From an uncultured Fibrobacter sp. (GTDB lineage Bacteria > Fibrobacterota > Fibrobacteria > Fibrobacterales > Fibrobacteraceae): a DNA stretch of 64,000 nt. The position numbers were made by a program, and so were the translations under genes. Under the pieces are notes generated by a model that saw only the letters and a list, made by a program, of their open reading frames with translations, did no database searches and was not told the origin of the DNA. Location: the NCBI RefSeq assembly GCF_947166265.1, contig NZ_CAMVDO010000003.1, positions 124,001-188,000 of the forward strand. Reading direction: 5' to 3'. Position 1 is the first letter of the stretch. Every line of letters starts with the position of its first letter. Positions 19,258-62,672 of the stretch are shown here, piece by piece.

Positions 19258-19280
19258 AGTGCGGTAAATGTAGCTTTTAG

Positions 19281-19391
19281 ATGAGAGACGAGAGACGAGA
19301 GACGAGAGATTTTTAGTTTTTTCATTGCGCGAAGCGCCATTATTTCACTTTCGTCTCTAGTCTGTAGGACCGAAGGTCCGTTCTTTCGTCT
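19281..19391. repeat. composite intergenic repeat, copy 1
   Basis: Left arm: tandem (G)AGACGAGA words (19281-19309). Centre: GCGC-GAA-GCGC followed by CATTAT. Right arm: TCGTCTCTAGTCTGTA, then a 5-bp hairpin GGACC-GAA-GGTCC (19367-19379), then GTTCTTTCGTCTA. The arms are mutually inverted. A second copy at 35566 has the same order with a different but equally self-complementary stem. It lies in the divergent space between uppP and the DUF2334 gene. Confidence 0.85.
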
Positions 19392-19412
19392 AATATTACT
19401 ATCTTCAAAGTC

Positions 19413-28680: not shown

Positions 28681-28722
28681 AGTATGAAAAAGAGGCCCCC
28701 GAGGGGACCTCTTTTTCATACT
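28681..28722 (-). terminator. terminator of tRNA-Arg
   Basis: Fifteen-base arms AGTATGAAAAAGAGG and CCTCTTTTTCATACT enclose a C/G-rich loop. The arms give a T-run on either strand. The hairpin overlaps the last bases of the tRNA gene. Confidence 0.8.
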
Positions 28723-28792
28723 CACGGCGGGAGTCGAACCCACGACCCGCTGCTTAGAAGGCAGCTGCTCTATCCAACTGAGCTACGCGAGC
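28719..28792 (-). tRNA. tRNA-Arg (anticodon UCU)
   Basis: Minus strand: acceptor GCTCGCG pairs with CGTGAGT (two G-U pairs), D arm GCTCAGTTGGATAGAGC, anticodon stem GCTGC/GCAGC around loop CTTCTAA (anticodon TCT), T arm with TTCGACT. CCA is not encoded. It decodes AGA/AGG. A spurious rightward frame of 160 codons runs through it. Confidence 0.96.
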
Positions 28793-31940: not shown

Positions 31941-31988
31941 TGTCATCCTGAGCGGAATGCCGCAAGGCATGAAGTCGAAGGATCTAAA
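31941..31988. repeat. dispersed 'TGTCATCCTGAGC ... GTCGAAGGATCTAA' repeat
   Basis: The same two outer blocks recur at 55081-55118, inside the RluC-like gene, around a different middle. Here the middle carries ATGCC-GCAAGGCAT, a small hairpin. It lies between serC and its terminator. Confidence 0.75.
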
Positions 31989-32065: not shown

Positions 32066-33997
32066 ATGAACAAGAAAACTAGTTTTATCAAAGCCGCTTT
32101 TATTTTTGCGATGGCTTTGACCATGACAACAGCGGCCTACGCCGTGGATGCCTGTAAAGATCAGGAAATGGGACACGTGGGCGAAGGAACCATAGTAGAA
32201 GGCGACGCAAAAGGTTCCATCACCGATATTCCTTGGGGATTTCAGCAGTGGTCCCAAAATGAATCCAGTTACATGACCTACTATAGTAATGGCACATATC
32301 AAGCTGTATGGAGCAATGCGGCCGACTATATGGCCATGGTCGGTTTCTTTTATGATGAAACAGGCATCGATTATACGGAAAAAAACTATGCGGTTGATTA
32401 TAAATACTCAAAAACAGGAAGCGCACCTTACGGCTATATTGGCGCTTATGGTTGGACAACAAATCCTCTAGTCGAGTTCTACATCATAGATGACTGGTAT
32501 AGCAAGCCTAGTGAACAATATATTGGCGAAAAGTTCGGCGAAATCACCGTCGATGGAGCGAAATATACTATCCACGCATATCTTCGTCAGCAAGAACCTA
32601 TCGACTTCGATCGGAACAATCAGCAAACATACTTGCAGATTTTCAGCGTTCGTGACTCAGCCCGTCAATGTGGACATATCAATATTTCCGCCCATTTAAA
32701 AAAGTGGAACGAACTCTTTACTGGACAAACAAAACAGCTTAGAGGTTCTAAAGGCGGCGGATCAGCAAGTCTCAAGCTCGGCAAAATAACCAAAGTATTG
32801 TTCATGACCGAAGCAGGCGGGAACGCAAAAGGTTCCATTGATTTCACTTACTTTAATATGGAAGAAAACGCTTCGTCTAATAGCGAAGTGATTGAATCAA
32901 GCTCATCTTCCGAAGAAGAGTCTAGTTCCTCCGAAAAATCTAGTTCGTCTGTAACGCTTCCCCCTTATGTTTTAGTTGATGCTTGCCAAGATGACGTAAA
33001 TATGGGACATCCCGGTGAAGGCAACATCATAGAAAAAAATCGTATCGGTTCCATCAAAAATACTCCCTGGCGCTTCGAACAATGGTATGACGGAGGCGAA
33101 GCAGCAATGACTGTTTACGACAACGGAACCTTTAAGTCTGAACTGGATGAAGCTGCCGACTATATTGCACGTGTAGGTTTCCGATATGATTCAACAGGGA
33201 TTGATCATACAACCAAAGCCTTCGCCGCAGATTATAAATACACTAGGTCTGGTACAGCAGGAAATAACAACTACTTAGGCGCATATGGTTGGACAACAAA
33301 ACCACAGGTAGAATTTTACATTGTAGATGATTGGTGGGATGGTCCCAGACCCAACGAACTGTATGTGGGCGAAAAGTTTGGTGAAATAGAAGTAGATGGA
33401 GCTAAATACTCCATTCACGCGTTTCTGCGCCAGCAGGAACCCTCCACAACAGGAACATCCACCTTTATGCAAATTTTCAGCATTCGCGAGACACCCCGTC
33501 AGTGTGGACATATTGACATTTCCGCCCATTTCAAAAAATGGAACGAACTCTTTACGGGGCAAGAGAAAATCCTCAGAGGTTCTAAGGGCGGTGGAAAAGC
33601 GGAACTTAAATTCGGCAGACCGACTGAAATATCGATTATGGCAGAAGCCGGACATTGTAAAGAATGTTCTATAGATTATACTTATCTGAATATTGTGGAC
33701 AACGCCGATTCTCGCATCGAAGATCCAGAATCTAGTTCGTCTGCAGAAGAATCATCTTCATCCGTAGCAGAAAGTTCGTCTTCGGAAGAGGAATATACAA
33801 CCACTCTGTCGGCAAACATCCACCTCAACAATACTGACAAAAAACTGCAGATATTCGATATGCAAGGACGATTCCTGGGAAAAACTTTATTTACAAGAGA
33901 AGCGGATATGCAAGCCGCAGTTAAGGCTCTTGTTCAAAGGAGTGGAAACTATATCGTTAGACAGAACGGATATGTCTACAAGATTTCCGTGAAATAG
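32066..33997 (+). CDS. xynC: tandem GH11 endo-beta-1,4-xylanase (XynC-like)
   Basis: 643 residues from the ATG that begins a clear signal peptide (NKKTSFIKAAFIFAMALTM). Two GH11 domains (about residues 40-262 and 300-540) each open with VDAC...MGH.GEG. Each carries the nucleophile Glu in PxVEFYI (Glu137, Glu416) and the acid/base Glu in TEAGG or AEAGH (Glu249, Glu527). Glu/Ser-rich linkers follow each domain. The last 60 residues, IFDMQGRFLGK...GNYIVRQNGYVYKISVK, look like a type IX sorting domain. The plan matches the two-domain XynC xylanase of F. succinogenes. It cleaves xylan backbone outside the cell. TACTTTTG at 32025 may be its promoter box. Confidence 0.93.
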   Translation: MNKKTSFIKAAFIFAMALTMTTAAYAVDACKDQEMGHVGEGTIVEGDAKGSITDIPWGFQQWSQNESSYMTYYSNGTYQAVWSNAADYMAMVGFFYDETGIDYTEKNYAVDYKYSKTGSAPYGYIGAYGWTTNPLVEFYIIDDWYSKPSEQYIGEKFGEITVDGAKYTIHAYLRQQEPIDFDRNNQQTYLQIFSVRDSARQCGHINISAHLKKWNELFTGQTKQLRGSKGGGSASLKLGKITKVLFMTEAGGNAKGSIDFTYFNMEENASSNSEVIESSSSSEEESSSSEKSSSSVTLPPYVLVDACQDDVNMGHPGEGNIIEKNRIGSIKNTPWRFEQWYDGGEAAMTVYDNGTFKSELDEAADYIARVGFRYDSTGIDHTTKAFAADYKYTRSGTAGNNNYLGAYGWTTKPQVEFYIVDDWWDGPRPNELYVGEKFGEIEVDGAKYSIHAFLRQQEPSTTGTSTFMQIFSIRETPRQCGHIDISAHFKKWNELFTGQEKILRGSKGGGKAELKFGRPTEISIMAEAGHCKECSIDYTYLNIVDNADSRIEDPESSSSAEESSSSVAESSSSEEEYTTTLSANIHLNNTDKKLQIFDMQGRFLGKTLFTREADMQAAVKALVQRSGNYIVRQNGYVYKISVK

Positions 33998-35549: not shown

Positions 35550-35565
35550 AACTTTAATATAGATT

Positions 35566-35691
35566 AAAGACGAGAGACGAGAGGCGAGAGGCGAGAGAAA
35601 ATACCCCTTTATCTAATCTTTATTTGCGCAAAGCGCCATTATAAAATCTCTCGTCTTTAGTCTGTAGGCTCGTAGAGCCGTTCTTTCGTCT
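35566..35691. repeat. composite intergenic repeat, copy 2
   Basis: Left arm: AGACGAGAGACGAGAGGCGAGAGG words. Centre: GCGC-AAA-GCGC followed by CATTATAAAA (35626-35646). Right arm: CTCTCGTCTTTAGTCTGTA, hairpin GGCTC-GTA-GAGCC (35667-35679), then GTTCTTTCGTCTA. The final CTA provides the TAG stop of the adjacent leftward lipoprotein gene, so the repeat reaches into its coding end. Confidence 0.85.
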
Positions 35692-36526
35692 AGTACCTAG
35701 CCTCGTAGATGCGGTCACTCGCGGTAAAGAACATTCGCTCCAGGTCCGGCCAAGAAAGATAGCCCCACACGACCGCCACTCGCCCACCGGCCAAGCGGCT
35801 CGCGATTCCGTTAGAGCCCTCGCCCGCTTCAAAATAGACACAGTCATTCGCCGGAAAAATGCCGACCGGCCGCACATGCCTTAAGCCCGCCGCCCATGTT
35901 TCAAACGCTTCGGATTCCACCTGATCCCAGCTGCGAGCCACGTTCCAGCGCAGATTGCCGTCACGGTAGCTTTGCACCAGCACAGGAAAGCTCGACTTGA
36001 CGCCCAGGAAAAACTTTGTCTGGATAGAAGCTCGTCCCTGCTCGCGAAAATCAAACGGCAGACTCAGGAACGCCTGCGGAAAACCACCATGATAGCCGGG
36101 GAACCTGCGCACGAAATTTTCGAGGTCGGCACGCTCATAACGACGGTAACTATCGTGTCGAAAAATAAAGATACGCTTGTCGGCACGGAAACTCTGTTCC
36201 AGGAAATTTCCCCTCAGAATCGGGACGCTCCCCTGGAAATGTCCGCTGTTCATGTAGTAGTCAAGAGCGTAGACATCACTTTCGAATTCAAGCACCGAGA
36301 CATCGAGCGTGTCGCCCAGCATCACGGCGTATCTATAGTCGTAACGACTTTTCAAGGAAGGAATATCAGCTTTTTTTGAAGAGTCTACCGCAAAAGAGGC
36401 AGGCTTCAAAAACTTGTACGCAATCGACGAATAATCAACGGGAACTTCTTCTTTTTCCTGACAGCCCGCAAAAAGCGCGACACAAGCCGCAATTGCAAGC
36501 CACATGAATCGAGAAGAAAAACGCAT
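35690..36526 (-). CDS. conserved lipoprotein, unknown function
   Basis: 278 residues. Signal peptide RFMWLAIAACVALFAGC with lipobox FAGC. The mature part has a beta/alpha pattern around YAVMLGDTLDVSVLEFESDVYALDYY and GNFLEQSFRADKRIFIFRHD, reminiscent of DUF6599-type periplasmic proteins, but I cannot confirm this. No catalytic motif. The TAG stop is supplied by the end of the composite repeat. It has no partner gene in an obvious operon; a tandem-word repeat lies upstream. Confidence 0.7.
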   Translation of the reverse strand: MRFSSRFMWLAIAACVALFAGCQEKEEVPVDYSSIAYKFLKPASFAVDSSKKADIPSLKSRYDYRYAVMLGDTLDVSVLEFESDVYALDYYMNSGHFQGSVPILRGNFLEQSFRADKRIFIFRHDSYRRYERADLENFVRRFPGYHGGFPQAFLSLPFDFREQGRASIQTKFFLGVKSSFPVLVQSYRDGNLRWNVARSWDQVESEAFETWAAGLRHVRPVGIFPANDCVYFEAGEGSNGIASRLAGGRVAVVWGYLSWPDLERMFFTASDRIYEARY

Positions 36527-54819: not shown

Positions 54820-55920
54820 ATGATTACTCGAGTCATTGACCGCAATTTTGCCAACATGCGCCTCGACCGTTTTTTACGCAAGGCGTTCCCCGACGAATCG
54901 CTGTCGGTCTTTTTCGCCGTCATCCGCAAGAAGAAAGTCCGCGTGAACGGCGTGGTGGGAAAAGCGAACCAAATGCTGCAGGAAGGCGACACCGTCTGCA
55001 TTTACGAGAATTTCAAGAGCGTCAGCGAAGACGAGAGAACGCTCGCAAGCTCGCTACAGACGAGAGACGAAAACACAGCGTGTCATCCTGAGCAAGCGAA
55101 GCACGTCGAAGGATCTAACGCCGGTTTCGCCAAAGCCAAGTCTACCTGGGGCAAAACAGACGAGAGACGAAAGACGAGAGACGAAAGGAACGCTTCTTGG
55201 GGGGCAAAGGAACTCGACATCGTCATTCAGACCGAAGACTACGTGGTCGTAAACAAGCCCTCGGGACTTGCAAGCCAACCGGGCTCCGGCACACGCCCCG
55301 GCGAAAGCCTCGTGGAATACCTGTGGGAATGGGGCCGCCGCGAGGGGCTCGACTTCAAGCCCACTATCGCCCACCGCCTCGACCAGGAAACCTCGGGCAT
55401 GATCATTGCCGCCCTCCACGGCGATACGCTCCGCGACTTTACGCGCATGATCCGCGAACACGAAGTCGACAAGTTCTATTACGCGCTCGTCAAAGGGAAC
55501 CTCAAGAAAGACAAGGGAACCATCGACGAGACGCTCACCCGCACCGATGCAGCCAAGGGCTCCAAGATGAAGGTTGGCGAAACCGGAAAGGATGCCCAGA
55601 AGGCCATCACGCATTACCGCGTCAAGCAGCACTACGAAGGCTACGACCTGGTAAAAATCAAGCTCGAAACAGGCCGCATGCACCAAATCCGCGCCCACTT
55701 CGCAAGCATCGGGCACCCGCTCCTGGGTGACACCCGCTACGGCGATTTCGCGCTCAACCGCGAAGTCAAAAAGCAGCTCGGACTCCACCGGCTTTTCTTG
55801 CACAGCTGCCGCCTGGAATTTGTGTGGCACGGCGACAAAATCGTACTCGATTGCCCGCTCCCTAAGGAACTGCAAAGCGTCGTAGATCAGTTAAAGCCTA
55901 TCCGCCACGAGTACCGGTAA
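54820..55920 (+). CDS. RluC-like 23S rRNA pseudouridine synthase with repeat insert
   Basis: 366 residues, longer than the usual 310-325. S4 RNA-binding domain (residues 1-65: MRLDRFLRKAFP, VRVNGVVGKA). Catalytic RluA domain from about residue 130: DYVVVNKPSGLASQPGSGTR, then HRLDQETSG with the catalytic Asp near residue 190, and RMHQIRAHFASIGHPLLGDTRYG. Between the domains residues about 71-124 are encoded by dispersed repeats (TRDE, ACHPEQAKHVEGSN, DERRKTRDERN). The insert falls in the flexible interdomain linker, so activity is probably kept. Target uridine cannot be told; RluC or RluD type. Confidence 0.9.
   Translation: MITRVIDRNFANMRLDRFLRKAFPDESLSVFFAVIRKKKVRVNGVVGKANQMLQEGDTVCIYENFKSVSEDERTLASSLQTRDENTACHPEQAKHVEGSNAGFAKAKSTWGKTDERRKTRDERNASWGAKELDIVIQTEDYVVVNKPSGLASQPGSGTRPGESLVEYLWEWGRREGLDFKPTIAHRLDQETSGMIIAALHGDTLRDFTRMIREHEVDKFYYALVKGNLKKDKGTIDETLTRTDAAKGSKMKVGETGKDAQKAITHYRVKQHYEGYDLVKIKLETGRMHQIRAHFASIGHPLLGDTRYGDFALNREVKKQLGLHRLFLHSCRLEFVWHGDKIVLDCPLPKELQSVVDQLKPIRHEYR
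55030..55190 (+). repeat. in-frame composite repeat insertion in the RluC-like gene
   Basis: Outer parts are the AGACGAGAGACGA words of the 19281/35566 repeats (55058-55070 and 55158-55185). Inside them lies TGTCATCCTGAGC ... GTCGAAGGATCTAA (55081-55118), the repeat seen after serC. Total about 160 bp, a multiple of three in effect, with no stop in the host frame. Confidence 0.85.
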
Positions 55921-55947
55921 AAAGACTCCATTTCTCTTTACTTTGTC

Positions 55948-56010
55948 ATGCCCGCATGGTTCGGCCCTTCGGCAGGCTCAGGGACCTTATCACCACCTTG
56001 CGGGCATTTT
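55948..56010 (+). terminator. terminator with a dispersed repeat in its loop
   Basis: ATGCCCGCA (55948-55956) and TGCGGGCAT (55999-56007) pair, followed by TTTT. The 42-base loop contains GGCCCTTCGGCAGGCTCAGGG (55963-55983), resembling the common CCCTTCGACAGGCTCAGGGACC repeat. Serves the RluC-like gene; budA is convergent. Confidence 0.65.
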
Positions 56011-56898: not shown

Positions 56899-59808
56899 AT
56901 GAAATTCTTATCGGCAGTTATTGTATTCCTATTTCTAATGGGCTGCAGCAGCGAAACAAGCAGTTCAAGCAATCAGTCAGATAACGAAAATCAATCGGAT
57001 TTCGTCGAAGTCGAAGGAATGGTCCAACTAAAGAGCGGATCCGTTTCCATCGGTTCCAATGACAAAAGCTTCAAGGCAAACGAACGCCCCGCCATGGAAG
57101 TCATACTCGATTACGACTTCTACATGGGCATCCACGAGGTCACCTGTGGCGAATACGCCAGTGTAGCCAAAAAAGCCAAGCTCAAGACCTTCAAAAAATG
57201 CGAAAATGACAGTCTCCCCCTCACCGACATCACCTACTACGACGCCATCCTTTTTGCAAACGCCAAGAGCAAACAGGATAACCTAGATACAGCCTATACC
57301 TATAGCAAGCCCCTGTATGACGACGACGGGCACTGCACGGAAATGGAAGGTTTTGCATTTCACCCTGATGCGAACGCATTTCGGCTTCCCACCGAGGCGG
57401 AATGGGTCTATGCGGCAAGCCTTGCCTGGGACGTAAAGAAAAGCTGGAATAGCGACAATTCCGATTACAAGCTTCATCCGGTCTGTAGCATATGGACAGA
57501 CTCCACCGGATTCTGTGACATGGCCGGAAACGCGATGGAATGGGTGAATGACTGGATGGGAACATTCCGCGACACAACCGTCACCAACTATGTGGGGGCT
57601 CCCGATGGCGGTGACCTGGGAGAAAGAATCGTAAAAGGGGGCCGTTATTCCTCTACCCCAAAAGAGCTCAACCCATACAGTAGAGGGGATGTCTATACGG
57701 TCACATCAGCCACAAGAGCCGATTACGTTGGCTTTAGACTCGCGTTCGGAAAAATTCCGAACCCACTCTGGATGGGTGACGACGGTAAATCACAATCAAG
57801 CGTCATTACCCCACTAGCCCAAAGCGAGACACTCAAAAAGCTAACAGGCACATACAACGTAAAACTTTCCTTCCGCAACGATATTTCCGGAAATATCGCC
57901 TATATCGACTACCTGAACGGAACGGTTTCTGTCAAGGAAATTACAAAAAATGTCAGCGCGTACCATCCAGAAATTTCTCCCGACGGAAACTGGATTGCCT
58001 ATTGCACCGGATTCGAAGGCGTCTCGGGCAAAACAACAATTTACGTTCAAAACTTTGATACCGAGAATCACATCAAGGTAAAGCTCAAAACAGAAAGTGC
58101 CGCAATCCCCCGCTGGAACGTCCTTGAAAACGGCGACACCGTCATTGTCTACGTAAACGACGCCGGGAACAACAAGGAAAACGCAACGTTCAAAGGAACC
58201 TCAACCTGGCAGGTCAAATTCAAGAATGGAAAATTCGGAAAGCCACAGAAACTTTTCGACGGAGCATACCATGGAGGCATCAGCGAAGACCGCACCCTGG
58301 CTGTTTCGGGCACAAGGATTCTGCGGGCCCGTGTTGCGAAAAAAGGCTCAACCATAACCGACAAAGCAAGCGACATTGTTTGGTACGATTCAGCCCAAGC
58401 CTGCAACGTATCGCTTTCCCAAGATGGAACCAAGCGCACCGCATTCCTCGACTTCGGTGGAAAACCGGGCAAGAAATTTGTCGGCGAAAGCTACGCCACT
58501 CACGAAAGAGTCTTGATTGCAGACAGCACCGGGAAACTAGTTCAATCGCTCAAGGCCCCCACGGGTTATACATTCGACCATACGGAATGGGCAACCAACG
58601 GTGAAAAATCCATTATCGTAGCAACGCTCAGCAACACAAACGGCGCACATACCAAAGTAGTCCTCATCAACCCGACAGACAGCTCCATTACCGAAATCGT
58701 CGAGGGCGAAGAGGTTTGGCATCCGAACCTATGGGTAAAAAGAAATCATATAAAGTACAGTTCGAGTAGTGCCATCAGCAGCAGCTCTGCTATCCGCATC
58801 AGCTCGAGTAACTCCAGTAGCAGCACGGTTATTATTGAAAGCAGCTCGTCGTCATACGATTCAAATATTTCGAGCAGCATTGTCGTTCAAGAAAAATCCT
58901 CCAATTCTAATTACAGCTTTGAACTTGACCCAGACAGTGCCGGAGCCTACTACCGATCTTCGGGGCCCAATAGAGACGCAGACCAATGGCGTTATAAAAT
59001 GGAATTCCTTTGGCAATATAAGGATACGGCTAATTTGGTTGTACTGGGATCGTCTCGTGCCTACCACGGCATAAATCCAATGCTGTTCAGCACACCCGTT
59101 TTCGCTATCAACCTAGGGGTATCCAGAAATGCAATCGCGGGAACCCATTACCTTTTCAACCATTACGTGTTACCCCATGTAAGGAATCTAAAATATGTCG
59201 TATTGACCGTAGATAATGATTTATGGAATGACACCGAATCCTTTTTTACATCAGATTACAAATCATACCCCGGTTACGTTTACGATGCCAATCACAATTT
59301 TTGGATAGATCATTTTCCGGAACAACTCGTAGAATACACCTACGAATCATTAGGAAACAGCATCAAAGGGCAAATGCTTAGAAAAATGCGTGGTTATTAT
59401 GACGTAACGTCCTGCTCTTGGGGAAAACCAGCTGTAGAACAAGACAGTAATTGGTTGCAAAAGCGATATAAATATTACTACGAAAACTTTGAAATGCTAA
59501 AGGATCTGGCAAAAACGTGCTTTGAACATAACATCATCCTTATCGGAATAATCACTCCACGTAGTCCACAATACAAGGAAACAGGATCTTTTGGTTACCA
59601 TGGACTGTTGCGTAGCGAAGCCCCTGCCCTCATTCAGGAAATTGCAGACATTGGCAAGACGTATCCCAACTTTATCCTGATGGACGAAAATAAAATGGGC
59701 AACCACGACTATACAGAAGACATGGCGTTCGACTTCGATCATCTTAATAGAAATGGTGCGGCACAACTAACGGCACGAATAGACGCTCTATTGAAAACTT
59801 TAGAATAA
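56899..59808 (+). CDS. TIGR02171 lipoprotein: FGE-sulfatase + beta-propeller + SGNH domains (1)
   Basis: 969 residues, lipobox FLMGC (Cys15). Residues about 40-285 are an FGE/SUMF1-like C-lectin fold (MEVILDYDFYMGIHEVTCGEYA, RLPTEAEWVYAA, GFCDMAGNAMEWVNDW, YVGFRLAFG). About 300-620 is a TolB/WD40-like propeller (HPEISPDGNWIAYCTG). After a Ser-rich linker, about 690-969 resembles an SGNH/GDSL hydrolase: VVLGSSRAYHG with Ser718/719, NLGVSRN, and FDFDHLN with Asp945/Asp947 and His948. Family TIGR02171 is expanded in F. succinogenes with unknown function. The SGNH part suggests a surface esterase, for instance deacetylating plant glycans. Confidence 0.87.
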   Translation: MKFLSAVIVFLFLMGCSSETSSSSNQSDNENQSDFVEVEGMVQLKSGSVSIGSNDKSFKANERPAMEVILDYDFYMGIHEVTCGEYASVAKKAKLKTFKKCENDSLPLTDITYYDAILFANAKSKQDNLDTAYTYSKPLYDDDGHCTEMEGFAFHPDANAFRLPTEAEWVYAASLAWDVKKSWNSDNSDYKLHPVCSIWTDSTGFCDMAGNAMEWVNDWMGTFRDTTVTNYVGAPDGGDLGERIVKGGRYSSTPKELNPYSRGDVYTVTSATRADYVGFRLAFGKIPNPLWMGDDGKSQSSVITPLAQSETLKKLTGTYNVKLSFRNDISGNIAYIDYLNGTVSVKEITKNVSAYHPEISPDGNWIAYCTGFEGVSGKTTIYVQNFDTENHIKVKLKTESAAIPRWNVLENGDTVIVYVNDAGNNKENATFKGTSTWQVKFKNGKFGKPQKLFDGAYHGGISEDRTLAVSGTRILRARVAKKGSTITDKASDIVWYDSAQACNVSLSQDGTKRTAFLDFGGKPGKKFVGESYATHERVLIADSTGKLVQSLKAPTGYTFDHTEWATNGEKSIIVATLSNTNGAHTKVVLINPTDSSITEIVEGEEVWHPNLWVKRNHIKYSSSSAISSSSAIRISSSNSSSSTVIIESSSSSYDSNISSSIVVQEKSSNSNYSFELDPDSAGAYYRSSGPNRDADQWRYKMEFLWQYKDTANLVVLGSSRAYHGINPMLFSTPVFAINLGVSRNAIAGTHYLFNHYVLPHVRNLKYVVLTVDNDLWNDTESFFTSDYKSYPGYVYDANHNFWIDHFPEQLVEYTYESLGNSIKGQMLRKMRGYYDVTSCSWGKPAVEQDSNWLQKRYKYYYENFEMLKDLAKTCFEHNIILIGIITPRSPQYKETGSFGYHGLLRSEAPALIQEIADIGKTYPNFILMDENKMGNHDYTEDMAFDFDHLNRNGAAQLTARIDALLKTLE

Positions 59809-59822
59809 ACTTTTATATATTA

Positions 59823-59841
59823 CCCAACAAGGGATATTCCC
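59823..59841 (+). promoter_or_regulatory. duplicated leader with alternative hairpins, copy 2
   Basis: CCC-AACAA-GGGA-TAT-TCCC followed by TAGGAG and the ATG. Upstream TATATATTACC lies only 10-20 bp after the first gene's stop, so the second gene may have its own promoter. Confidence 0.5.
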
Positions 59842-59852
59842 TAGGAGAAAAT

Positions 59853-62672
59853 ATGAGAATTTTACTAGCAATTATTGTATTCTTATTTCTAATAGGATGC
59901 AGCAACAGCGAATCGTTTACGCCTCCCAACACCGAGGAGTCCGTTCCTAACGATTCCGTTCAAATCGATCCCATTGTCATTGAAGGAATGATTCACTTCG
60001 CAAACGGCAAAGTCTCCCTTGGCACCAACAACAAGAACTTCAAGGAAAGCGAGCGCCCCGCCATGGAAGTCATACTCGATTACGACTTCTACATGGGCAT
60101 CCACGAGATAACCTGTGGCGAATACGCCAGTGTAGCCAAAAAAGCCAAGCTCAAGACCTTCAAAAAATGCGAAAATGACAGCCTCCCCCTCACCGACATC
60201 ACCTACTACGACGCCATCCTTTTTGCAAACGCCAAAAGTAAACTCGAGAATCGTGATACCGTCTACTCATATCGCAGCGCCATCTTCGATGAAGAAAAGC
60301 ACTGCACCGACCTCGAAGGTTTTGCTTTCCACCCAGGAATCGAAGGCTACAGACTCCCGACCGAAGCGGAATGGGTCTATGCGGCAACCCGTGCTTGGGA
60401 CGTAAAGAAAAGCTGGAACAACGAAAACTCCGAATACAAACTTCATACCGTCTGCAGCAAGGGAGCCGATTCCGCCGGGTTCTGCGACATGGCAGGAAAT
60501 GCCCTGGAATGGGTCAGCGACTGGAAAGGCGACTTCCGCGATACAACCATTACAAACTATGTCGGCGCCCCTAGCGGAGAAGACTTGGGCGAACGAGTTG
60601 TAAAAGGAGGATGCTATTCCTCCTCCGAAAAGGAACTCAACCCCTACAGCAGAGGCGACATATATACCGTCACCTCGTCCACGCGAGCAGAATATGTCGG
60701 TTTCCGGCTAGCCTTCGGAAACATCCCCAACGCGCTCTGGATGAATAACGACGGGACTTCACAGACAAGCGTCATCACGCCACTTGCAGGCATCGAGACC
60801 ATCAAAAAAATCACCGGCTCATACAACGTAAAGCTCGCCTTCCGCAACGATGTATCTGGAAACATCGCCTATATAGACTACTTGAACGGCAGTATGTCCG
60901 TCAAGGAAATCACCAAAAACACAGACAGCTACCATCCAGAAATTTCTCCTGACGGAAACTGGATTGTCTATTGTACCGGATTCGAGGGAGTCGCAGGGAA
61001 ATCAACAATTTACGTTCAAAGCCTTGAGGGAGAGGAAACCATCCAGGTAAAACTCAAAGCAGAAAGTGCAACAATCCCCCGCTGGCGCGTCCTTGAAAAC
61101 GGCGACACAACTATAGTCTACGTGACCGATGCCGGGAGCAACAGGAATAAAGCGACATTCAAATCGACTTCGACATGGCAAGTCAAATTCATGGACGGCA
61201 AGTTCGGCACCCCGCAAAAACTGTTCGACGGAGCCTACCACGGTGGTATCAGCGAAGACCGCACCCTTGCCGTATCGGGCGCACAGCTCCTGCGCGCTCG
61301 CATTGCCCAGAACGGGTCCTCCGTAACAGGAAAAGCAAACGATGTCGTCTGGTACGATTCAGCGCAAGCCTGCAACGTATCACTTTCCCAGGATGGGACC
61401 AAGCGCACTACCTTCCTTGATTTTGCAGGGAAGCCGGGCAAGGACTTTGTCGGCGAAAACTATTCCACCCATGCGCGTCTTTTTATAGCTGACAGCACCG
61501 GAAAACTGATCCATTCCATCAGGGCCCCCTCGGGCTACACCTTCGACCATACGGAATGGTCGACCGATGGAGAAAAATCCATTATCGTAGCAAGCCTCAC
61601 CAACACAAACGGGGCACATTCTAAAATCGCCCTTATAAATCCAGAAGACAACAGCATCACCGAGATTGTCGAAGGCGATGAGCTCTGGCACCCGAACTTG
61701 TGGATTAAGAAAAAGACCAGCAAATCAAGTTCCGACAACGACACGCTCCCTGCAAGACCAGCTTTCGAACTGGATCCAGACAGTGCCGGAATTTATTACA
61801 ACACCTCTGGAGCTCACGATAGAGCCGACCAGTGGCGCTATAAAATGGAATTCCTGTGGAAATATAAAGATACGGCAAACATTGTCATTATCGGTTCTTC
61901 ACGAACCTACTATGGCATAAATCCCCTGCTTTTTAGCGAGCCCTATTTTGCAGCAAATCTGTCCGTTTCAGGAAACCACCAAAAAGCATCTTATCATTTC
62001 TTAACGCAATATGTACTCCCCCATGTGAACAAATTAAAGGTAGTCATCAAGGACATTGATTTGGACAGATGGCATACCGTTAGTTCGGGCATTTTTAGGT
62101 CTGCATATACAGCATACCCTGGATACGTTTACGACAAAAACCACAACTATTGGAAAGGCAACTATCCAGAAGGTTTGGCTGAAGCCGCTTACGATGCCCC
62201 CGGTAGCGCCTTAATACAAGGCGTGCTGCGTCCAACACGAGGATACCAGGAAAGATACGCCCACGGCTGGGGCAAGCCAACAACAAATCATGATTCCACC
62301 TGGCTTGACGAACTCAGGAACAACTACTATGATAATTTCGACTATCTTGTAAAAATGATCAAAGAATGTCAAAAGAGGGACATCATTTTTATCGGCATCA
62401 TCACGCCAGAAAATCCGCATTACAAAGAAACAGGTGCCTTTGGAAAGCATGGGCTCAGGAGAAGCGAGGCCACATCGCTTATAGCAGAAATCAATAGCCT
62501 AAGCGAGAAGTATCCCAACTTCATCTTGATGGACGAAAACAAGATGGGCAATCATGACTACACAGATGAAATGGCGTTTGATACGGACCATCTAGCGGGC
62601 GCAGGCGCAACGCAGCTGACTCTTCGTGTGAACGAACTCATCAAGACATTAAACATCCATTTTGAACAGTAA
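59853..62672 (+). CDS. TIGR02171 lipoprotein: FGE-sulfatase + beta-propeller + SGNH domains (2)
   Basis: 939 residues, paralogue of the gene before it with the same domain order. Lipobox FLIGC. The linker before the SGNH part is shorter (KSSSDNDTLPARP instead of the long Ser run). IIGSSRTYYGINP and FDTDHLAGAGA keep the candidate Ser, Asp and His. A 182-bp tract in the FGE domain (60054-60235) is about 98% identical to the first gene, while the flanks have diverged. Expression could be joint or separate. Function as for its neighbour. Confidence 0.87.
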   Translation: MRILLAIIVFLFLIGCSNSESFTPPNTEESVPNDSVQIDPIVIEGMIHFANGKVSLGTNNKNFKESERPAMEVILDYDFYMGIHEITCGEYASVAKKAKLKTFKKCENDSLPLTDITYYDAILFANAKSKLENRDTVYSYRSAIFDEEKHCTDLEGFAFHPGIEGYRLPTEAEWVYAATRAWDVKKSWNNENSEYKLHTVCSKGADSAGFCDMAGNALEWVSDWKGDFRDTTITNYVGAPSGEDLGERVVKGGCYSSSEKELNPYSRGDIYTVTSSTRAEYVGFRLAFGNIPNALWMNNDGTSQTSVITPLAGIETIKKITGSYNVKLAFRNDVSGNIAYIDYLNGSMSVKEITKNTDSYHPEISPDGNWIVYCTGFEGVAGKSTIYVQSLEGEETIQVKLKAESATIPRWRVLENGDTTIVYVTDAGSNRNKATFKSTSTWQVKFMDGKFGTPQKLFDGAYHGGISEDRTLAVSGAQLLRARIAQNGSSVTGKANDVVWYDSAQACNVSLSQDGTKRTTFLDFAGKPGKDFVGENYSTHARLFIADSTGKLIHSIRAPSGYTFDHTEWSTDGEKSIIVASLTNTNGAHSKIALINPEDNSITEIVEGDELWHPNLWIKKKTSKSSSDNDTLPARPAFELDPDSAGIYYNTSGAHDRADQWRYKMEFLWKYKDTANIVIIGSSRTYYGINPLLFSEPYFAANLSVSGNHQKASYHFLTQYVLPHVNKLKVVIKDIDLDRWHTVSSGIFRSAYTAYPGYVYDKNHNYWKGNYPEGLAEAAYDAPGSALIQGVLRPTRGYQERYAHGWGKPTTNHDSTWLDELRNNYYDNFDYLVKMIKECQKRDIIFIGIITPENPHYKETGAFGKHGLRRSEATSLIAEINSLSEKYPNFILMDENKMGNHDYTDEMAFDTDHLAGAGATQLTLRVNELIKTLNIHFEQ

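Follow-up and report, generated by a model that had tools for sequence, protein, structure and literature searches.

Small repeats that lie in frame inside bacterial genes have been described as Rickettsia palindromic elements (RPEs; Ogata et al. 2000/2002, reviewed in PMC2229807), while Wolbachia is known for protein-coding palindromic repeats and for MITE-derived peptides fused in frame (PMC2229807). Intragenic GTAG/CGTC REPs were reported in O. terrae, Thauera, Xanthomonas, Rickettsia, and others (Di Nocera et al. 2013, PMC3733652); uvrA and truB are recurrent targets of such repeats, including in free-living bacteria, and rickettsial truB carries RPE-1 (PMC3733652). Fibrobacter is absent from the intragenic-REP paper (PMC3733652), and we found no paper on in-frame repeats in this genus in the literature searched. 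In-frame repeats as such are already known from Rickettsia, Wolbachia, and the intragenic REPs, and the Fibrobacter case described here is new as a variant.

The gene in question lies in a 64,000-nucleotide stretch of DNA (the window) from a draft Fibrobacter genome of 3.77 Mb in 89 contigs (G000). It is an ORF of 366 aa on the forward strand (54820-55920), in which an S4 domain (Pfam PF01479, residues 13-59, 54856-54996) and a PseudoU_synth_2 catalytic domain (Pfam PF00849, residues 140-296, 55237-55707) are joined by a repeat-built linker. The catalytic motif HRLD (Asp188) is invariant in 26 orthologues. A first-pass annotation of this DNA had called the enzyme RluC-like. The wider family held, with 194.8 bits for the RluA-family model TIGR00005 (cut-off 192.7), but the equivalog cut-offs for RluC (139 of 378 bits) and RluD (141 of 351 bits) were missed, so that RluA-family is the safer name. 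The linker looks disordered, in line with the flexible tether proposed earlier: residues 56-129 have a pLDDT below 50 in an AlphaFold2 model, which was built from a shallow alignment and models the S4 domain poorly as well. The reading frame stays open across the whole linker with all repeat pieces in frame, and the insert is presumably translated, judging from the sequence; tryptic peptides predicted within the synthase are TLASSLQTR, DENTACHPEQAK, HVEGSNAGFAK, and NASWGAK.

Four pieces follow one another in the linker, all on the plus strand. Form A of repeat H (AGACGAGAGAACG-CTCGCAAGCTCG-CTACAGACGAGAGACGA; 55027-55070) is read as ..DERTLASSLQTRDE, and a BLAST search of G000 with the insert found a 44/44 nt identical match inside feoB. 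Repeat T (TGTCATCCTGAGC..GAAGGATCTAA; 55081-55118) is read as CHPEQAKHVEGS, and its TGTCATCC part has a 97% copy over 37 nt at G000:C3:80202-80238. Then comes a conserved, non-repeat piece (..AGFAKAKSTWGK..; 55119-55155), which is native and occurs in most relatives with or without repeats, and finally form B of H (55156-55187), a heptamer array (ACAGACGAGAGACGAAAGACGAGAGACGAAAG) read as TDERRKTRDER, which replaces the SASSAEKQSG native to relatives. The H pieces belong to a dispersed AGACGAG-type element and the T piece to a TGTCATCCTGAGC...GGATCTAA element. The first-pass annotation had described about 160 bp built of two dispersed repeat families; both families are indeed there, but they do not make up one insert, since 55119-55155 is native. 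Their dispersal is beyond chance: AGACGAGAGACGA has 10 matches in the window at no more than one mismatch, against 0.06 expected, and 78 exact matches in the whole genome (38 on the plus and 40 on the minus strand), and the core of T, TGTCATCCTGAGC, has 65 exact matches, the reversed control giving 0 in both genome counts. H was seen once among 32 genomes beyond the genus and is practically confined to Fibrobacter. A further repeat-like stretch (GGCCCTTCGGCAGGCTCAGGGACC) lies 3' of the synthase gene at 55945-56005 of the window.

Like RPEs, these are small repeats dispersed between genes and also found in frame inside conserved genes, tolerated where the fold is unharmed, and truB bears an insert both in Rickettsia (RPE-1) and in G000; TruB and UvrA alike are repeatedly hit by REPs in other phyla. 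They differ in that the host belongs to another lineage (Fibrobacterota), that at least eight families occur in a single linker, that several families are non-palindromic heptamer arrays, that the native linker was replaced as well as extended, and that the copy within the gene is half an element and lacks a stable fold. The DNA fold of the linker insert is no better than that of shuffles (z +1.4 and +0.5), so that the palindrome is not retained, and the H copy in the synthase gene keeps GTAG with an imperfect stem. The parallel to Rickettsia drawn by the first-pass annotation is apt. GTAG REPs are similar in being short hairpin repeats inside ORFs, and H form A may share GTAG beside its hairpin, whereas linkage to RAYT is not seen for the Fibrobacter repeats and H is for the most part made of heptamer arrays that flank a hairpin whose sequence varies. 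The palindromic elements and MITE fusions of Wolbachia, compared by description, are likewise coding repeats in another bacterial genus. Cyanobacterial heptanucleotide tandem repeats (STRR) are described as mostly intergenic; they share with the Fibrobacter arrays the dispersed 7-bp tandem unit. The Fibrobacter repeats work like RPEs and intragenic REPs, without being assigned to either family.

The linker was compared across 65 distinct Fibrobacter orthologues, obtained by merging 45 loci from a genome search with 51 named loci. Its length ranges from 26 to 104 aa, its composition differs widely between species (acidic-basic, Pro/Ala-rich, or His/Cys-bearing), and many species have short linkers without repeats. 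Close Fibrobacter relatives lack the repeats, as had been anticipated, but alignment of the DNA with relatives revealed neither a target-site duplication nor a clean empty site in the synthase gene, because native sequence was replaced. The nearest relatives have a linker of 52 aa (VDADSQGATNVIQFPASQNEEAKSNAGFAKAKSTWGKSASSAEKQSGWGAKE) compared with 64 aa in G000; two native stretches were therefore replaced for a net gain of 12 residues, and the roughly 54 added residues of the first-pass annotation give way to turnover. In its core the synthase shares 99% identity with the orthologue of G005, one of the nearest relatives, yet the linkers differ. Against G005, dN is 0 in the S4 domain, and the catalytic domain has a dN of 0.0055 and a dS of 0.60; the core dN/dS is 0.009 (~0.01) at dS 0.60, and both domains are under strong purifying selection. 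Two findings had been named in advance as arguing against in-frame repeats, namely the same linker in orthologues of distant phyla and a sequencing error that breaks the frame: outgroup orthologues of the same class do not carry the G000-type linker, and every Fibrobacter orthologue that we examined keeps an open frame.

At least eight repeat families occur in these linkers, as called by sequence patterns of our own making; eight is a count of distinct patterns, because some families may be related to each other, and B5 and T have TCAT-CTG motifs in common. The fewest changes on the enzyme's own tree, built from the core with the linker left out, are 7 for H (the AGACGAG heptamer element), 1 for T (the TGTCATCC element), 6 for G3 (GGGGAAAGCCTTCCCCTCGC..GCTACCCCTTCNAGCGGGG), 7 for G4 (a CATGCCCACRTAAG..CTAAGTGGTCA unit within G3), 2 for B5 (TCATTCTGGAGG/TCCTCCAGGATGACG, read in sense in one species and in antisense in another), 3 for S6 (GGTTCGACAAGCTCACCAACC), 4 for E7 (the ATTCGGA heptamer), and 3 for L8 (the GGCTCGA heptamer), all of them rough figures because many branches are weak. 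The total of about 33 changes, gains and losses counted alike, may be inflated by wrong branching or interspecies transfer, as 29 of the 61 inner branches are poorly supported. The near-identical linkers L025 and L029 differ by a 54-nt G4 unit alone.

For H, G3, G4, E7, and L8, dispersed copies beyond the linker were counted in each genome separately, and for T in G000. Genomes with H in the linker hold 36-222 H matches, compared with a median of about 15 in other genomes (Mann-Whitney p 3e-4, not corrected for kinship). The E7 heptamer ATTCGGA is commonest in G002 (45 matches), whose linker carries E7, and L8 occurs in the genomes of both G008 and G024, which have L8 in their linkers. Exact dispersed counts of G3, G4, and L8 are low; G3 is also found between genes and in frame within other ORFs. 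Linkers thus sample repeats that are abundant in their own genome.

The reading that we favour, with a probability of about 0.85, is that repeats spread blindly and are filtered by selection, the linker being repeatedly overwritten from a local pool. H, T, and at least six other small dispersed families would spread or recombine regardless of gene borders; copies that keep the frame within a disordered linker or surface loop would be tolerated and translated, and those that break genes would be purged. The linker that joins the two domains of the synthase would be a permissive site, hence its repeated overwriting, and each species' linker would draw on the repeats abundant in its own genome. 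The insert itself would be translated and neutral or nearly so. Spread may proceed by slippage, which the heptamer arrays suggest, or by recombination or template switching, to which the replacement of native stretches points.

The most serious competitor, which we nevertheless consider unlikely, holds that these are mobile miniature transposons of the REP/RPE type, mobilised by RAYT or another transposase and favouring linker DNA. Its appeal lies in how the elements are built. An intergenic H element of full length is palindromic, measures about 120-130 bp, starts with TTAGA and ends with TCGTCTAA; its heptamer array is followed by a spacer that holds a small hairpin and then by an inverted form A. 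One such element in the window (19277-19393, no strand assigned) has this order, with the GTAG-hairpin in its inverted form A, and a DNA fold z of -3.6/-3.0, none of 200 shuffles folding as well at the former value; a second (35564-35693, no strand assigned) has z -2.9. On one strand, the consensus of 26 form-A copies, collected with a pattern that already included CTA[CA], is GTCTGTAG-hairpin-CGTTCT, which resembles GTAG-tagged REPs (PMC3733652). Between its constant arms the hairpin varies in sequence, with a perfect stem in 20 of the 26 copies and 10 different stems. Its loops are mostly TNC, that is, GNA on the other strand. The GNA loop is known for very stable DNA mini-hairpins. This plan is less marked in the T family, where 13/28 copies have stems of 4 bp or more, against 5 expected from shuffles; an intergenic copy on the plus strand (31941-31987) has the variable hairpin ATGCC-GCAA-GGCAT between constant arms.

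Against a transposon stands the distribution of its candidate mover. Genes with PF01797 (RAYT, Y1_Tnp) are patchy in the genus and missing from the H-rich genomes G006, G019, and G037, G000 has just a 59-residue match, and none of these repeats lies near any of four RAYT loci, so that RAYT was rejected as the mover; no mobilising enzyme or linked transposase was found. Several linker families, moreover, are plain heptamer arrays, unlike transposons. 

Read simply letter by letter, the heptamer array is free of stop codons in all six frames, and each of its three sense frames yields one and the same cyclic peptide, RRETRDE. Copies with an imperfect stem lie inside ORFs in 7 of 12 cases and those with a perfect hairpin in 3 of 20 (p 0.018, with the grouping made post hoc). 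An H sub-family in which CTCGCAAGCTCG replaces the perfect hairpin (L083-L088 and window 55027-55070) occurs mostly within genes, where its copies lie on either strand and in different reading frames.

In-frame copies are by no means restricted to the synthase. We surveyed a sample of G000 genes, the neighbourhoods of H and T matches seeded with two words, and 20 of 90 H/T clusters fell in long frames flanked on either side by coding signal; among these 20, one (L035) was spurious and two genes were hit twice. The ORF L035 was dropped, as the opposite strand bears the real genes at that place. With four additional H copies inside ORFs, the total comes to about 20 genes besides the synthase, and 12 repeat copies are in frame inside ORFs by a strict test. 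Pfam-confirmed genes encode CoaBC, FeoB, a UvrA-like protein, MnmE, TrpCF, a CbiX/siroheme protein, RsmB, TilS (two inserts), an Omp85 protein, a glycosyltransferase, an EF-G-like protein, RsmG, TruB, a DUF4423 protein, an M18 peptidase, a tRNA-synt_1c protein, an arginase-family protein, a DEAD helicase, and an aminotransferase; one further gene encodes a membrane protein without a Pfam match. The first-pass annotation under-stated the extent of the phenomenon, given at least eight families in the linker and in-frame repeats in many other genes. No surveyed copy was seen to break a gene; 15 same-strand suspects (6 with a "different frame" and 9 with a "stop between") were rejected, as they lie between separate reading frames.

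Ten of the repeat-bearing genes were aligned with three relatives each. The insert is missing in all or some relatives for the glycosyltransferase (GT4), TruB, CoaBC, TilS, the M18 peptidase, and TrpCF, while in the remaining genes the insert site is a variable stretch or common to one relative (MnmE in G005). The M18 peptidase is counted with caution, because similar DNA occurs in G010 and partly in G005, and its H variant could be native. In RsmB (L212-L214), the loop of relatives is made of another peptide, in two cases RGVAGSPARRGSEQRNRASEGEAS, which looks like G3 read in antisense. TrpCF and a glycosyltransferase (L091 and L170) contain CHCEERSDEAI-like peptides (RHCEERSDEAIH and RNVSDEAIQS), which resemble another common bacterial repeat, the TCATTGCGAGC family.

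Five of the 16 other repeat-bearing genes (L060, L104, L162, L172, and L185) encode RNA-modifying enzymes, an over-representation with p 3e-5 at an assumed baseline of 2.5%. This would suit an adaptive origin, in which charged or Pro/Ala-rich tethers are selected because they tune RNA binding or the spacing between the S4 and catalytic domains, as would the reading of H in the linkers of synthase orthologues, which is always the charged sense (DERR..) and never the hydrophobic antisense. Such a bias towards hydrophilic peptides is, however, also expected from the survival of non-disruptive peptides alone, and both the wide variation in composition and length (26-104 aa) between species and the many short repeat-free linkers tell against tuning. 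Although linker charge and disorder might be under selection and not neutral, we regard adaptive repeats as doubtful, more so than a transposon. Chance low-complexity drift that came to resemble repeats, or an assembly error, may be dismissed despite fast-evolving linkers and a draft genome, in view of a copy elsewhere that is identical over 44 nt, of matching H pieces at identical linker sites in the independent genome L111/RUG10152, and of comparable cases, each of them in frame, in many genomes.

Blind spread with selective filtering thus remains our preferred reading. On a more tentative level, for which we would claim rather less than even odds, repeats may be flowing continually into the inter-domain linkers and the loops of core enzymes, with RNA-modifying enzymes foremost, species by species and from the local pool, together with a coding-adapted, hairpin-less H sub-family that resides mostly inside genes.

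Known RNA families were rejected as an explanation, as the sole Rfam match in the window is a tRNA gene (28719-28792, minus strand), and no similar DNA was found on plasmids. A tandem pair of long related ORFs (56899-62593), with copies about 2.97 kb apart and stretches of DNA 75-85% identical, is apparently a duplicated lipoprotein gene, and internal direct repeats at 32318-33651, spaced by about 834 nt and 71-78% identical, correspond to a repeated protein domain.

In-frame repeats are best known from Rickettsia, intracellular bacteria of reduced genome size, in which they could be put down to relaxed selection. Their wide occurrence in a gut fibre degrader with 3.8-Mb genomes makes it testable how non-coding repeats become protein, and about 50 related genomes serve as replicate natural experiments on the sequences that a domain linker accepts. 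Repeat-bearing regions can mislead alignment and annotation, and differences between the linkers of enzymes from different species may reflect repeat turnover, not function. In Fibrobacter, repeat DNA appears to rewrite parts of apparently working proteins.
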